Source of the DNA: Nannochloropsis salina CCMP1776
Lineage: Eukaryota; Sar; Eustigmatophyceae; Eustigmatales; Monodopsidaceae
Direction of reading: 5' to 3'
DNA: 64,000 nucleotides
NCBI GenBank assembly: GCA_004565275.1
Contig: SDOX01000020.1
Location: forward strand, 127,189 to 191,188
Shown: piece after piece, positions 43,668 to 50,324 of the stretch
How positions within the stretch are numbered: position 1 is the stretch's first letter
Layout of the letters: every line of letters begins with the position of its first letter
Notes under the pieces: generated by a model
The model's input: only the letters and a program-made list of their open reading frames with translations
Told to the model about the DNA's origin: nothing
The model's database searches: none
Translations under genes and position numbers: made by a program

Positions 43668-45128
43668 TCATCGGCGCTTGCGAGTCGTGCTGCCGAATCC
43701 TCCACCGTTCCCGCGCTCTTTTTTCTGAGCAGCCGGCCGTGGGCGGCGATACGTGGCTCCCACGGCCTTGCAGTGCTTGCCGCACAAAAGCAGACCCATG
43801 CTGTTAATCCCTTGGTGGAACAAAGAGCACCCCTCCCACCGACATCGCCCTCCTCCATGCTGCCCACACAGGTAGTCAGGCCACCGCTGGTTCCCGTCGC
43901 AGTTCTTGACCCGACATATTTTGCGCCCATTGTACGGGAGGTGGTCTCCGTACCGCCCGAAGTTCATGGCCGCAGGACGGTGCTTGCTGCCGTCGTCGTC
44001 GCTTCCTGCACTGGAGACGCTGCCGGTGCTGGGCAGCGCACCCGAGCCGGCTCCGGTCAGCTTCTGCGAGCCTTTTCTCCCCGGGGCCGACGTCGAAGAT
44101 GCGTTCGACTCAGGCAAGGTGCCCAAGTAGTGCCAAGGTCCGTCATTGCGCGGAGTGGGTATGTATCCATCTTCCTCCAACGTGCTGGCGAGGCCTTGGG
44201 GGGCCGTTGCTTCTATGGGGACAGACGTCGAGAGAGAGCGTCTAGGGGGCTGTCCGAATAGACTCGGCTCTGACCTCGCAGCCCCCATTTCGTCTACACC
44301 ATCTCCCCCATTCCTTCCCGAATGGAAGGGGAGCTGTCCCGTCATGCTCCCAAAAGGATAGGAGACAGGGTCCATCGGCACTCGCGCGGCCGAGTCCGGG
44401 AGGGAGGAGACCGAGCTGGGCACGGGAGGGACACCTGCCCAGGACAGCGTGGCCGGTTGGAGCATAGGAAAGGGTCTGTCGCCCGCACTTGGAGAAGAGC
44501 TGATCGAGGTAGTGGCCGTGGCTGATGTGGAAGACTCGCTTCCAATGTACGAGCTAGCCTCTCCCTGTTGGGTCGCGGTGCCGGGCAAGGCCGCGCCCCT
44601 ATCGAGCTGCGTGGTAGACAAGCACGGAGGATTACTCTCACCAGGTGTGACAGTGTGCAAAACCGTGGCTGCCACCACCCCCGCGTCGCTCCATTCGTGA
44701 TTGGCACCAGTACCATTCGTAGCCATTATCGCCTCCGACGCGGCTACAGCAGTGGGGGGACCCTGGCCCTTGCCTCCCGCGTGGGAGTGCGTGATGCTTT
44801 GCATCACTTCATGCGCTTGTAGACCACCTACTGCATACATCGACGTCCCTTCTTTCGGTGCTGACGTGCTTTTCGAGCCGCACCGGAAAGGGGCCTGCTG
44901 ACTTAGCTGGATTTGCTGCTGTTTTTTGACTTGATCAAGTGCTTCAACACATGCGTCGATGCCCACTGCCTCAACTATGAAATTGAAGGTCTCCAGTAAT
45001 TGAAGACTGTCTGCCTCATCTGCCCGACGATTGAATTCGTCCATGAAGCCAACCATGCTTTTCACGTCCTCGCTCCGCCAGACCGGACCGCGTGGGAGGA
45101 GCATGAAAAGGCCATTTTGCGAAGACAT
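43668..45128 (-). CDS. Ser/Gly/Pro-rich protein with C-terminal WRKY19-type zinc repeats
   Basis: 486 residues from the first in-frame ATG (45128), one exon. The N terminus (about 15-75) is helical: WRSEDVKSMVGFMDEFNRRADEADSLQLLETFNFIVEAV. A long disordered region rich in Ser, Gly, Pro and Thr runs from about 80 to 390. The C terminus has two linked Cys/His units: CRVKNCDGNQRW...LCGQHGGG, then RCRWEGCSLF...GLLLCGKHC. The C-x4-C ... C-x2-H spacing with HGGG resembles the small zinc repeats found beside WRKY domains and in many oomycete and stramenopile proteins. A strongly basic tail (TTRKRR) suggests nuclear location. DNA or RNA binding is inference; no WRKY domain itself is present. The antisense strand also has long open frames, but they follow from codon bias. 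Confidence 0.68.
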   Translation of the reverse strand: MSSQNGLFMLLPRGPVWRSEDVKSMVGFMDEFNRRADEADSLQLLETFNFIVEAVGIDACVEALDQVKKQQQIQLSQQAPFRCGSKSTSAPKEGTSMYAVGGLQAHEVMQSITHSHAGGKGQGPPTAVAASEAIMATNGTGANHEWSDAGVVAATVLHTVTPGESNPPCLSTTQLDRGAALPGTATQQGEASSYIGSESSTSATATTSISSSPSAGDRPFPMLQPATLSWAGVPPVPSSVSSLPDSAARVPMDPVSYPFGSMTGQLPFHSGRNGGDGVDEMGAARSEPSLFGQPPRRSLSTSVPIEATAPQGLASTLEEDGYIPTPRNDGPWHYLGTLPESNASSTSAPGRKGSQKLTGAGSGALPSTGSVSSAGSDDDGSKHRPAAMNFGRYGDHLPYNGRKICRVKNCDGNQRWPDYLCGQHGGGRCRWEGCSLFHQGINSMGLLLCGKHCKAVGATYRRPRPAAQKKERGNGGGFGSTTRKRR

Positions 45129-46249
45129 AGTTGGATACAATTACAACCAATGCAGCTCGCGCTGGTTCACCGGCCACCAATCAGACCTTTGTCTGCTATA
45201 GTTCCTTTGTGGTGTGCAACTCTGTCGATGTGAGCCATCACAAAAATAAAGAGCGGTCATGGTGTCTACCATAGTTTCAACAAGAAGCGAGAGACGCGAG
45301 TCGAAAAATGTTATCATAGTGTCTGCTTAAGCGCGGTCTCTCTGCAACGTAGCACGAGAAATCATCTTTTGTACCCTACATGTCGGTCGCACCCTTACAT
45401 ATAGCGCCAACATGTACTTCAGCTCGACAAGGAAAAGAGAAACATACTTATGTCCCATATCGGGCACCGATCAAAACCAAACAATTCACCTTTTAGTCCC
45501 AGGCACACAAGTACAAAGAACAAGAGCCTCTTTTTTGAAGCTAATGAAATACACTGTAGATGTTTTTGGTTCATCGCTTGCGAGGGCGCCGCAAACAGAG
45601 ACCTCCACGGTCCATGCGCGTGTGGTCTCGTTTATGAGGGTTATAGCATTTTTCAAAGGTCGGTCGGAACAAAATTTTAAGCCATTTGAAGCGACGCCGG
45701 CCGAAAAACCATCTTCGAGTGACCAGACATCGAACCCTGCTTTTCTCTGCCTTCAGTCTCCGCATGGGTCTCATATTGTGGCTTTGGCTTAATCGACATA
45801 GTATTGTTCCGGCCGTCGGGATGGTCCTGCTACGTAGTCTACTAGGTAATACCAGAGAACGTAGAACCATCTGGGTGACTAAGTCATTGAAAAAATAGAC
45901 AAAAACGGCTATAACAAATGATAAGGAGCATCAGATACTTTATATCACGCAACGAAAGACCATTACTTTCACAGGGAAGTGATTACAATCCTTTGGTTCA
46001 CCTTTTGCGAGGCCATAGTCATTCTCCTTCCGCCCCATTCATTCGATGCATGCGCTAATGAAAAGCCTCAGACAGATCCACACGAGGAATGTACGAGGCC
46101 GGGGGACGTCAAAAAGAGAGACGCGGTTGTTGAAAATTGCTTCGCTTTCCTTCGAAGCCTTCAATCTACGCAACGGACCCATAGAAAAAAACAAGCACTC
46201 TCTTCCTATCTTTGTTCTTTATTTCGCGGGAAAAGACACCCATTTAGCA
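45129..46249. other. intergenic region
   Basis: About 1.1 kb between the start of the zinc-finger gene and the 3' end of the RtcA fusion gene, both on the minus strand. Frames of up to 126 codons (45412-45792 plus, 45571-45870 minus) have no recognised family and no paired splice signals. I see no RNA gene. Confidence 0.5.
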
Positions 46250-48544
46250 CTACGTCTCTGGAGTGAAAGCATGCCCTTGTGCAATTTCAACAGTCAAAGG
46301 CCCATCGCTTTTGTCACTCCACATTTTGAAGCTGACTCCTAGCAGCTGTTCTGTGATACGGATGGCGGTCGCAACATGATTCGAAGACAAAAATGATCGT
46401 GGCGGCCCAAGCACACGGGAGGTACCCTGCGCCAAAGCCATGTACATCACCAACTGATCAAGTGTGTGTTCATCTACGCAAGCTCCCGCCGCTTGACACT
46501 TGCGAAGAGTGCTGGCGAGTTCAGTGCAGACGCGTCGCTGCTCACCCTCCTTCTCACAATGTCTGTCGCCGTTATGATCACCTGACCCATCAGGCTTCCC
46601 GTTGGTGTGGTTTTGGAATTGCCGCAAATCTTCCAGCAACATGTCTGCGCCCAGACGGCATCCGCTGGTCGATTCTAGGACCAAGAGGAGGTGGAAGACC
46701 TCACGCTTGAGCCTTCCGCGGGCCCGTTTTCTCGATGCGAACCCTTGACGTCGCCCGCCGCCGCCTCCCCCTTCTTGCTCCCGCCCCGAGAAAGGCTCCT
46801 GCCTCCACACGTTGTCTTGATACTCAATGGCTATCTGGCCGCCGAAAACCTCCTCCAACACGTTACCCAGCACATCCCCGAGCCCCTCCACCAGGCGCTT
46901 ATCTGCGCCGCTCCCAGCCGTTACGATGCCCGTTGCAAACGCTAGTACACGCTGGGGACGACCAGGGTCCGTGAGGTTCAGTGGGCGGAGAGGAGAGAGA
47001 GGAGGAGATACATGGACCTGGACTTGTCCCCCTCCCTGGGGAAAGAAGCCTCGACTCAGGACCTCCGTCTCGACAACCAGGCCCATTCGAGCGAGCACCG
47101 GGGCGGTGACATGCACAAAGTAGTCGATGGAGGGCGAGTGGGAGACCGTGGTTCCACCTTGGAGGGTGAGTGTGACTCCCTCGGCGCCGGGGCGGGGACC
47201 GGGGCGTGCGGACTGGGCGGGGGCTTGGAAGGCGAGCAGGGGTAGCGCAGCTTGCAGCAACAGCGTTACGCTGCCGGCGGTGCCAGGGTCCGCCTTTAAA
47301 TGACGTTGGGGCGACGGAGACGCATCGAGGGAGGGAGAAAGAGGAGGGTGGATGCAGACCTCCGTGCTGCCCAAGTTGGCACCCTCCACGCTGCTCCTGC
47401 CTATCTCGGCGACCAGCCTGACACCGGCCAAATGCTGAGGCTGCAGGCCCGGCTTGCTTCTACCAGATCGAATGGAGCTGATGCGAAGGCGCTTTCGTAG
47501 TAAGATGCCTAGGGCCAGGGAAATGCGCAGGACTTGCCCCCCTCCCTCTAGCAAGCTCCCGTCTACCTCCACCTCTGCTGGGTTTATGCGGGCAGGAGGT
47601 GTTGCGTTCTTTGTGCCAGCACTCAGGCGAAAGAGACCCTGATCGGCAAAGGTTGCGCCTGCATGGCTTGGGAGTGTACCGGGCTCTACTCTAGTCACGC
47701 TGCCGCCGGCCAAGCGGACGATATAGCGCACACTGAAGGGGTCCGTAGGCCCGTTTCTCGCCAGCAGGTACAGCTGACGCACTGGGAAGACCTCTGCAAC
47801 CCAGTCGACCGAATCGATGAAATCTTTCGCGCTCTTTCGATCCTGGAACTGGCCTATGGACAGGTGCGGTGTAAATCTCCCTCCGAAAGAGGCGGTCAGG
47901 TCGGCGCAGTGAGGTATCGCAGCTTGGCAAGCAGCCTGTAGCTGTATTATTCTCGGATGCGGTGCTGGGCGGGCAAGTTCTTCTTCGTGTCGAAGCTCCG
48001 CATCGCTCAACCGCGCATCTTGCGGGGCCAGCCACGCTGTGCAGGAGGATCTCCCGTGTTCGAAGTAGCCCATCCGGGCCATTGTACAATCGTCGATGAC
48101 CGCGAAGGAGGACAATGCTTTTTGGAGGACGCGAGCAGCAGCATCAAATTCATACTCTGGCACGAATGGATAGATGATGTTGACGTGAGGTGGCCACCGC
48201 CTATAATGCTTGTCGTAAGAGCGTCGAATAGACTGGATGGCCGTAAAGAGCGACGAGTCCATGTCAGGCATTAAAGCCAGGGCGGACTGGTGGACTTTCC
48301 GGCCAGAAAAAAAATCGGAAAGATTTCCATCAGCTGTAGACATTGCAGACATTTCCCCCCTGCTAGTGGTGCTGGCAAGACGACAATTGGGGAGTCGAGC
48401 CTGGAGAGCAATGCCCTCTTGGCGGACAGAGGATAGGGTAATGATGCCCGCCCAGGACAGCGGCGCTTTCAAATGGCCCAGCGATACCAGCATGCGGAGG
48501 TGCACAACCGGTAGGCTCCCCTGTTGAGATCCATACTGTGGCAT
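46250..48544 (-). CDS. RTCA: fusion of a 2H (LigT/CPDase-like) phosphoesterase and RNA 3'-terminal phosphate cyclase
   Basis: 764 residues in one exon. Residues about 85-285 form a 2H phosphoesterase: two His motifs, HVNI in WPPHVNIIYPF (His120) and HLSI in FTPHLSIGQF (His227), with the usual spacing. In the first, Asn replaces the common Thr/Ser, a change also seen in related eukaryotic proteins as I recall. Such enzymes open 2',3'-cyclic phosphates or join or hydrolyse 2'-5' RNA bonds. Residues about 325-755 are RtcA, which converts RNA 3'-phosphates to 2',3'-cyclic phosphates using ATP: GSLLEGGGQVLRISLAL (from 329), ADPGTAGSVTLLLQA, the signature RGFFPQGGGQ (498-507) and the adenylylated His693 in DEHTLDQLVMYMALA. 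A Gly/Arg/Lys-rich insert (about 585-615) lies before the last third. The first ATG is 48544; residues 1-70 are unlike either domain and may be a presequence, with the ATGs at about 65-68 as alternatives. Confidence 0.86.
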   Translation of the reverse strand: MPQYGSQQGSLPVVHLRMLVSLGHLKAPLSWAGIITLSSVRQEGIALQARLPNCRLASTTSRGEMSAMSTADGNLSDFFSGRKVHQSALALMPDMDSSLFTAIQSIRRSYDKHYRRWPPHVNIIYPFVPEYEFDAAARVLQKALSSFAVIDDCTMARMGYFEHGRSSCTAWLAPQDARLSDAELRHEEELARPAPHPRIIQLQAACQAAIPHCADLTASFGGRFTPHLSIGQFQDRKSAKDFIDSVDWVAEVFPVRQLYLLARNGPTDPFSVRYIVRLAGGSVTRVEPGTLPSHAGATFADQGLFRLSAGTKNATPPARINPAEVEVDGSLLEGGGQVLRISLALGILLRKRLRISSIRSGRSKPGLQPQHLAGVRLVAEIGRSSVEGANLGSTEVCIHPPLSPSLDASPSPQRHLKADPGTAGSVTLLLQAALPLLAFQAPAQSARPGPRPGAEGVTLTLQGGTTVSHSPSIDYFVHVTAPVLARMGLVVETEVLSRGFFPQGGGQVQVHVSPPLSPLRPLNLTDPGRPQRVLAFATGIVTAGSGADKRLVEGLGDVLGNVLEEVFGGQIAIEYQDNVWRQEPFSGREQEGGGGGGRRQGFASRKRARGRLKREVFHLLLVLESTSGCRLGADMLLEDLRQFQNHTNGKPDGSGDHNGDRHCEKEGEQRRVCTELASTLRKCQAAGACVDEHTLDQLVMYMALAQGTSRVLGPPRSFLSSNHVATAIRITEQLLGVSFKMWSDKSDGPLTVEIAQGHAFTPET

Positions 48545-48813: not shown

Positions 48814-50324
48814 TCAGACACCCTCATGGAAATGGTCGTACATACGCCCTGCTGCGAATCCTCCTCCTGACAGTGTGGGTTGGGACAGCTTGTCGTCGAG
48901 CACCTGAGTCCCAAGCTCCTTCTCCCGCAACTTCCGCCGCTTCTGCTCCTCTGTCTCTGTCCGCAGCCACCTCTCGGCGATGCGCAGCAGAGGCCCCGGG
49001 TCGCCGGCCCTGCGGAGCTCTTGGTAGTGCTCGAGATCTTCCAGCTTCCCCTGCCACCCGGTACGACCCTGATTGGTCATGAAGTGCAGATGCGAAGGCC
49101 AGTCGTCGAGGCCGTCGAAGATGTGGGTAGCGTATATCACCGTGGCGCCCCTCACCTCCGTCTCCCGCCGTAGCCAGCGCAGCAAGTCTTGGCGCACCAC
49201 AACATCCAGAGATACGGTTACTTCATCAAGAAGAAGGATGTCGAAGGGGCGGACCAGGCCTAAAAAGAGCTGCACGCGTCGGCGCTGTCCGTCCGAGACC
49301 CTGTTCATGCGCCACTCCGGGTCGATTCCCAGAAGCTCCAGGAGCTCGTCCCGTCTCTCTGGGTGCTGGCTCTGCAGCTTACTCATCATGCCGGTGACGG
49401 GGATGTCTGCCTGCAGCGGTACCCCGTAGCCTGCGAAGGCGACCGTGCGCATGCCCCAGTCCGTGTCCATGTACGCACGGATCAGGTTCAGCTTGGTGTC
49501 TCGGAAAGCGTGCATCCCCATCACGGTAACCGCGTCGTCAGGCTTAGTCAAGTGCCGTCCTCCTAGGATACGGAGTAGTGTGCTTTTCCCCGCTCCGTTC
49601 GCGCCGATAAGAAGGCATCTTGGAAATAGAACGGATTGGGGGGGACAAGCGAAGGGAGATAAGGGAGAGGGGAGCGGTTCAAGCGGCAGCGTAACGGAAA
49701 AGACCTCATATAAGCGTTATGAAAGTTTCATGTTGATAATGAATGTCCAGATGGCTGCGCAGGGCAAGTCAAATAAAATTTACACAAGATGCATTGGATC
49801 GATGGCACCCGCGGTCGAGGGGGCACGAAGCCACCATGTCTCTTCCCGAAGGAAAGGTTGGGCTTTGACAGCTAGATACCATGAATATCGCGAAGATGTC
49901 TGGTTCAGGTTAAAGTAGAAGCATCGCATTAATGCTAAAACAGCATTGCTCAGAAACGTGTCTAGGTCGCGATGAGTGATGAGAGAGTGACGTACATGCT
50001 ACCACAATTCACCAAACACATCAGGCGTGTACGATGGAGGAATTACGTACCGGCTACCTCTTTTAAGCCGCATATTGATACCCTTCAAAACCTATCGGGG
50101 TAGGGGGTAAACGTAGACGTGACGAACGTCAGTCGAAAGGGCGTGTTCGGGCAGTCGAACCACCACGCACGTGCGTCCCCATGCCTCAAGCCCTCCTTCT
50201 AAAAGCTTACTGGACGGTCCCCGTAGGAAAAATTTAAGTCTCGGATGAGGACAGCGTCGTCAGGCAAAAAAGGACCAGCCACATCCTCCTCTGGCTTAAG
50301 CGGAGTCTTGGTAAGGTCGGTCAT
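48814..50324 (-). CDS. soluble ABC ATPase of the CAF16/ABCI20 type
   Basis: A single ABC domain without membrane segments. Three exons: 50324-50211, 50091-50051 (only 41 bases) and 49618-48814. Donors are GTAAGC and GTACGT, acceptors GATAG and CCAAG, phases 0 and 2. The 319-residue product reads LIRDLNFSYGDRP, then VLKGINMRLKRGSR, then the Walker A CLLIGANGAGKSTLLRILGG. Then come the family-typical VAFAGYGVPLQADIPV, the signature-like VSDGQRRRVQLFLGL in place of LSGGQ, Walker B FDILLLDEVTVSLDV, and ATHIFDGLDDWPSHLHFM. These match Arabidopsis ABCI20 and yeast Caf16, a partner of the CCR4-NOT complex. The plant proteins have been linked to the ER and to cytokinin responses, as I recall. The C terminus ends in a basic helix and GGGFAAGRM, also as in ABCI20. 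The cellular role here is unknown. Confidence 0.9.

Follow-up and report, generated by a model that had tools for sequence, protein, structure and literature searches.

The window analysed here is a 64,000-nucleotide stretch of the Nannochloropsis salina CCMP1776 genome (contig SDOX01000020.1, positions 127,189 to 191,188), and it carries on its minus strand a gene predicted to join a 2H phosphoesterase and an RtcA-type RNA 3′-phosphate cyclase in a single polypeptide. The initial annotation had placed both domains in one reading frame and this was borne out. The frame runs from ATG to stop and both domains give Pfam matches above their cut-offs: PF13563 (2_5_RNA_ligase2) at residues 97-265 with 99.1 bits against a cut-off of 27, and PF01137 (RTC) at residues 332-741 with 226.1 bits against a cut-off of 27, covering model positions 2-221 of 221. 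Since both scores lie far above the cut-offs, neither match is due to chance, and as a sequence the fusion of the two enzymes in one chain is well supported. Beyond these two families, a Pfam search of the fused protein at E 1 returned nothing but a sub-threshold C8 match. The parts of the gene are as follows.

46250..48544, minus strand: whole fused open reading frame, a single frame from ATG to stop, 764 residues
48335..48544, minus strand: N-terminal extension, residues 1-70, pLDDT below 50
47750..48256, minus strand: predicted 2H phosphoesterase domain (PF13563), residues 97-265, from Pfam, alignment, model and Foldseek
48185..48187, minus strand: His120, first 2H motif H-V-N, H in 38/38 aligned sequences
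47864..47866, minus strand: His227, second 2H motif H-L-S, H in 38/38 aligned sequences
47573..47689, minus strand: linker, residues 286-324, without Met, codon-position GC 0.69/0.62/0.46
46322..47572, minus strand: predicted RtcA-type cyclase domain, residues 325-741, from Pfam, NCBIfam, PDB search and alignment
47546..47548, minus strand: Glu333, paired by alignment with E. coli Glu14
46376..46378, minus strand: His723, RtcA nucleophile position, paired by alignment with E. coli His309

The N-terminal extension has no acidic residue before residue 43. Mitochondrial targeting was considered for the N-terminus and dropped because its top helical moment was reached or exceeded in 96.8% of 500 shuffled sequences, which places a possible amphipathic helix within the controls. 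The upstream neighbour (48817-49716, minus strand) encodes an ABC ATPase domain, and a scan of five neighbouring frames for RNA-repair domains found none. A further frame of 490 residues (43671-45140, minus strand) has no Pfam match at E 0.001 and a cysteine- and histidine-containing C-terminus.

The two halves of the protein

The cyclase half was aligned with 31 RtcA relatives, taken from 34 loci after one fragment (L102) and two duplicates (L116 and L117) were dropped. In 46 columns, at least 90% of these relatives share the same residue; the cyclase half has it in 43 of them, and the three departures, Leu332, Ile398 and Gln440, are not among the catalytic residues named here. The nucleophile of E. 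coli RtcA is His309 (PMC6277466). Its counterpart is His723, in a column that holds histidine in 31/31 aligned relatives. The initial annotation had given His693 as the active site; this residue sits in a 'VDEH' stretch in a non-conserved column, and the assignment has to move to His723. The full pairing with the E. coli enzyme is E14 with E333, R21 with R340, R40 with R359, R43 with R362, Q51 with Q370, H52 with H371, D287 with D696 and H309 with H723. The E. coli sequence came from NC_000913, whose record begins one residue later than the numbering that we take to be the usual one, and the residues other than His309 are presumably those of the ATP/RNA site. Judged from the alignment, the nucleophile and the ATP/RNA site residues are kept intact in the cyclase half.

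Other comparisons point to the same family while indicating divergence. A sequence search of the PDB with the C-terminal half retrieved the RtcA structures 4o89 (E 1.8e-31) and 1qmh (E 1e-28), and the cyclase half is 31-35% identical to the five RtcA relatives compared, 32% to the E. coli enzyme and 27% to the Rcl1-like gene of the same genome. The NCBIfam equivalog model for RtcA, TIGR03399, gave 232.9 bits against a cut-off of 250.05 and scored in two stretches, which fits insertions in the cyclase half. The RTC insert domain PF05189 was found with Pfam in 5/5 bacterial RtcA frames scanned and was not reported for the fused protein even at E 1; the corresponding region is present, but divergent and with insertions, a reading that follows from the unreported PF05189 together with the missed TIGR03399 cut-off. 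The longest stretches with no E. coli RtcA counterpart are residues 445-457, 577-588, 598-618 and 637-658. The fused protein is thus like E. coli RtcA in having a nearly full-length domain with eight matched site residues, and unlike it in having a 2H domain ahead and no recognisable PF05189.

Rcl1 belongs to the same RTC family, and an Rcl1 identity for the cyclase half was rejected because TIGR03400 reached 73.5 bits against a cut-off of 227.95 and the catalytic residues are present. The Rcl1-like paralogue of this genome (L002) differs in 23 of the 46 conserved RtcA columns; it keeps the counterparts of R21, R40 and the histidine but is without those of E14, R43, Q51, H52 and D287, all of which are kept in the cyclase half. 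In an RtcA tree (FastTree, no supports printed) the cyclase half joins the bacterial group at its base, on a long branch, and lies outside the Asgard sample, whereas its lowest tblastn E-values come from Asgard-phylum loci. Because the tree placement and the E-values disagree, we name no donor.

The branch to which the 2H half belongs was entered via plasmids (seven hits, six fetched). Scanning genome_contigs (84,980 species) with an alignment then confirmed 327 2H places, and the best 80 were retained. The resulting alignment holds 38 sequences, namely the domain of the fused protein and 37 of the 80 loci, which are 30-42% identical to it. Both catalytic histidines lie at the positions that the initial annotation gave, His120 in H-V-N and His227 in H-L-S. 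The first motif reads H-x-N in 35/38 sequences and H-x-T in 3/38, the second H-x-S in 29/38 and H-x-T in 9/38. Since both histidines are present in every aligned sequence and asparagine is the rule in the branch, we argue that catalysis has probably been kept.

An AlphaFold model of the 2H half, built on the branch alignment, reached a pLDDT of 88.4 and a pTM of 0.86. Foldseek ranked YjcG first among PDB entries (E 1.2e-6), with drCPDase, Arabidopsis CPDase and E. coli LigT, followed by AKAP18, which we take to have a 2H fold, and human USB1. The 29 PDB matches at E <=0.001 (TM-score by query 0.40-0.54, rmsd 4.7-11.8) consist of 2H phosphodiesterases, LigT, USB1, AKAP18, one 'phosphoesterase' and two trypanosome mitoribosomal chains, and the structural matches of the model can be called fair, not close. 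By sequence, the N-terminal half had no credible match in the PDB (one, at E 2.3). LigT/ThpR and plant CPDase share the 2H fold with the modelled domain and differ from it in identity (11-15% in structural alignments) and in the first motif, which is H-x-N in the fused protein. A FastTree phylogeny of the 2H domains placed the fused domain beside L028 with a support of 0.70, within a mainly cyanobacterial group (0.80, 0.88). The full-length model had a mean pLDDT of 53.5 with most of the RtcA half below 50; since its alignment contained 2H relatives only and its pLDDT is low, it is silent on contacts between the domains.

One gene or two

The fused protein has methionine at positions 1, 18, 65, 68, 92, 95, 155, 158, 487 and later, and codons 159-486 contain no in-frame ATG. 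The cyclase thus lacks a separate start codon. Five ATGs in other frames fall within these codons and lead into reading frames of 3 to 18 codons. Met487 comes after E333, R340, R359, R362, Q370 and H371, so that translation of a shortened mRNA from an in-frame ATG could not yield an active cyclase. A separate RtcA gene is disfavoured on these grounds. The earlier argument that a wrong gene merger is unlikely also holds, as there is one frame, no in-frame Met from which a separate cyclase could start and no sign of a merger.

Trans-splicing is the possible source of a second mRNA that deserves most weight. A published study has 89% of M. gaditana genes receiving a spliced leader and, over all its species, as many as 11 acceptor sites in a gene (PMC8570151). 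The 40-base M. gaditana leader from that source (PMC8570151) is found exactly in all four loci examined in the present genome (L130-L133) and is followed by GT in L131-L133. The exact match points to M. gaditana or a near relative as the source, a stramenopile in either case, and it is likely that the alga trans-splices a leader onto most genes. A 23-base core of the leader occurs at 12 places in the genome, 11 of them exact, against 239 candidate leader genes in the published assembly (PMC8570151), a difference that may reflect collapsed arrays or lower-bound counting. The core copies on contigs C2 and C43 form rows of alternating orientation. With a spliced leader carried by the genome, trans-splicing, or alternatively an internal promoter, might yield a second mRNA for RtcA and hence two proteins. 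We regard this as very unlikely because the missing start codon between Met158 and Met487 answers it, an argument that leaves aside a non-AUG start or an unseen intron. Least credible is an assembly or pseudogene artefact, for which the linker speaks with a codon-position GC less coding-like than in most neighbouring stretches, and against which stand 764 codons without a stop, two conserved domains in frame and the kept catalytic residues.

Company of the two domains and the RNA-end toolkit

The neighbourhood of the 2H branch was surveyed at 86 loci, comprising the best 80 of the 327 genome places and six of the seven plasmid hits (L010 and L046 are one and the same place), with flanks of up to 5 kb, complete for 61/80 genome loci, and of 1.5 kb for plasmid loci. 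No RtcA was found within the fetched flanks at any of the 86 (tblastn, E 1e-3). MJ1316, EEP and PAP lie together in the same frame as the 2H domain at 35 loci, MJ1316 alone at 9, EEP with PAP at 1 and PAP at 1; the other 40 are without a match to MJ1316, EEP or PAP in tblastn at E 1e-3 with Calothrix domain queries, which remote domains could escape. Pfam analysis of three representatives agrees with these domain calls. One contig from an 'uncultured bacterium' (L038) carries EEP, 2H and PAP in one frame that reaches the contig end, with no MJ1316 in the part seen. The MJ1316-EEP-2H-PAP proteins of cyanobacteria and actinobacteria have the same 2H branch as the algal protein, whereas the latter has no MJ1316, EEP or PAP at E 1 and carries RtcA instead.

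The reverse survey took in 34 RtcA loci, at 32 distinct places and in most cases with flanks of ~1.5 kb both ways, and gave no 2H hit. RtcA is also present in 9/20 genomes with the 2H branch, in 69/282 genomes of one sample and in 110/119 of a sample around the Lokiarchaeota genome G007. The RtcA frames of these last two samples are mostly about 330-420 residues long; 12 and 10 loci respectively were fetched, and the rest were judged for fusion by frame length alone. Three longer frames were rejected as fusions: for G127 (816 residues) Pfam gives RTC and RTC_insert only, a 790-residue frame of G006 has no 2H hit and a front part that looks spurious, and L110 (481 residues) has no further domain. 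The sample around G007 also contains a row of three RTC matches (G306, contig C198, 5961-9653), two of them in 667-residue frames, for which a tandem RtcA duplication or a fusion, perhaps in one frame, is possible.

Two loci from the sample around G006, whose locus L028 is labelled as a Proteobacteria MAG, encode RtcA with an N-terminal MJ1316-like domain (L106:1015-2481, plus strand, E 5.8e-5; L111:3-1796, plus strand, E 4.7e-4; both below the Pfam cut-off of 26.3 bits). Their 'YHRF...WDK' ending aligns to the 'WHR...WDR' of known MJ1316 domains, and in the RtcA tree L106 and L111 are each other's sister. On sequence grounds they appear to be a second way of placing an RNA-end domain ahead of RtcA. 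Pfam describes MJ1316 as the 'RNA cyclic group end recognition' domain, and it is reported to recognise 2′-3′ cyclic nucleotide ends and to take part in diverse RNA-repair fusions across eukaryotes (PMC6514570). RtcA, MJ1316 and the 2H branch thus occur in several pairings, to which the fused protein adds 2H-RtcA.

Viral relatives were sought in four scans of viral_contigs and none was confirmed; PHROGs gave none at E 1, and the phage records amounted to three weak partial ones (best E 0.4). The initial annotation knew of no described eukaryotic protein with this pair of domains. None was named in the titles and abstract openings of the literature searched, but Burroughs and Aravind 2016 may describe related architectures.

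The genome assembly of the alga (26.5 Mb, 103 contigs) was searched for RNA-end enzymes exon by exon with the best candidates scored, a procedure in which a strongly split gene could be missed. PF01137 gave two matches, the fusion gene and the Rcl1-like gene, and thus one catalytic-type RtcA; PF13563 gave the fusion gene and one weak match below the cut-off (E 0.147). RtcB (E 5.2e-156), archease (E 5.2e-41) and, as a separate gene, a USB1-type HVSL domain (PF09749, E 1.9e-33) are all represented. The RtcB match (L005, C93:498868-500145) comes from a search blind to exons and continues across a single TAG, where an intron may lie. Neither AKAP7_NLS nor Tpt1 (PF01885) had a match at E 0.1, and Tpt1 was matched in 3/14 control genomes. 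The T4-type RNA ligase PF09511 had no match, but the controls were silent too, so that its absence is uninformative.

A candidate RNA 3′-end enzyme

As chemistry, the idea of the initial annotation finds support: one chain would combine an enzyme that makes cyclic phosphates with another that probably opens them. RtcA converts a 3′-phosphate to a 2′,3′-cyclic phosphate with ATP (PMC6277466), and the cyclase half would be expected to do so through a His723-AMP intermediate. The 2H half would open cyclic ends, most likely to a 2′-phosphate and a free 3′-OH in the manner of CNP and of the CPDase of yeast and plant ligases. CNP gives the 2′-product (PMC3290555), as do the yeast and plant CPD domains (PMC3400036); yeast Usb1 gives a 3′-phosphate, so 2H enzymes differ in their product (PMC6277466). 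If both halves are active and ends are handed over from one site to the other, the phosphate would be moved from the 3′ to the 2′ position at the cost of ATP. Alternatively, the two halves may act as a balance that sets the amount of cyclic end available to the RtcB ligase.

RtcA is about five orders of magnitude slower on 2′-phosphate than on 3′-phosphate ends (PMC13247085). For this reason, if the 2H half is CNP-like, 3′-phosphate ends would on balance become 2′-phosphate ends and leave the reach of RtcB, provided that hydrolysis has the direction assumed here. The same slowness means that a true cycle would be lopsided, which counts against our best explanation. So do the H-x-N first motif, the differing products of 2H enzymes, the merely fair structural matches, and the divergence of the cyclase seen with TIGR03399 and PF05189. 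That explanation, to which we give about even chances, is a single bifunctional RNA 3′-end enzyme, in which one chain would do the work of the mammalian CNP/RTCA pair on RtcB ends. It builds on the single frame, the lack of a separate start codon, the catalytic residues, the modelled 2H fold and the presence of RtcB and archease in the genome, and it would imply a coupling to RtcB.

In mammals, CNP and RTCA have been described as forming what looks like a futile cycle at the RNA ends on which RTCB works (PMC13247085, PMC10630183), and in mouse cells RTCB-mediated splicing of Xbp1 goes up with RTCA and down with CNP (PMC13247085). The likeness to the algal protein is that a 2H phosphodiesterase is paired with an RtcA at RNA ends for RtcB; the difference is that there are two separate proteins in mammals and one chain in the alga. 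Presumably CNP belongs to another 2H branch than the fused 2H half. A bolder version of the bifunctional enzyme, which we put forward tentatively, is an ATP-driven RNA-joining switch in which RtcA would cyclise and the linked 2H domain would open the end to a 2′-phosphate that RtcB cannot use. Separately, RtcA, MJ1316 and this 2H branch may form an interchangeable kit of RNA-end modules.

Our analysis leaves as the main rival a targeting role, in which the 2H half would mainly recognise RNA ends and bring RtcA to its substrates while its hydrolysis is weak or absent. The MJ1316-like domain of L106 and L111, although below the cut-off, takes the same N-terminal place ahead of RtcA, bacterial proteins combine MJ1316 with this 2H branch in one chain, and the first motif is H-x-N rather than H-x-S/T. 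However, the two histidines in 38/38 sequences and an asparagine that is usual in the branch (35/38) argue for kept catalysis, and we consider a mere targeting role somewhat unlikely.

Two further readings are quite improbable, and about equally so. The initial annotation had suggested that ends are prepared for tRNA ligation, which for a ligase of the yeast or plant type would mean that 2′-phosphate, 3′-OH ends are made for it. The CPDase domains of those systems are 2H domains and the ligases typically depend on the 2′-phosphate (PMC3400036), but the lack of a Tpt1 match at E 0.1, where 3/14 control genomes were positive, and the presence of RtcB and archease weaken this proposal. According to the other reading, the 2H half would be a USB1-like 3′ exonuclease that leaves cyclic ends, and RtcA would re-close those that had been opened, so that 3′ ends are trimmed and guarded. 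Human USB1 does leave cyclic ends (PMC6277466) and USB1 is among the Foldseek matches of the 2H model; against this, the genome has its separate USB1-type match, and the fused protein matches PF13563 with HVSL not reported at E 1.

The bifunctional enzyme thus remains our preferred reading. The endogenous RNA target of RtcA is called unknown in a published account (PMC6277466), and the fusion, with the function that we infer for it, bears on a biological role of RtcA that is still open. A natural fusion of a cyclase and a 2H domain suggests that both act on the same RNA ends, and one purified protein would allow a direct test of whether these ends are shared. The arrangement itself looks real: two activities that reside on separate proteins in mammals, where they tune RNA joining, would in this alga be encoded by one gene.
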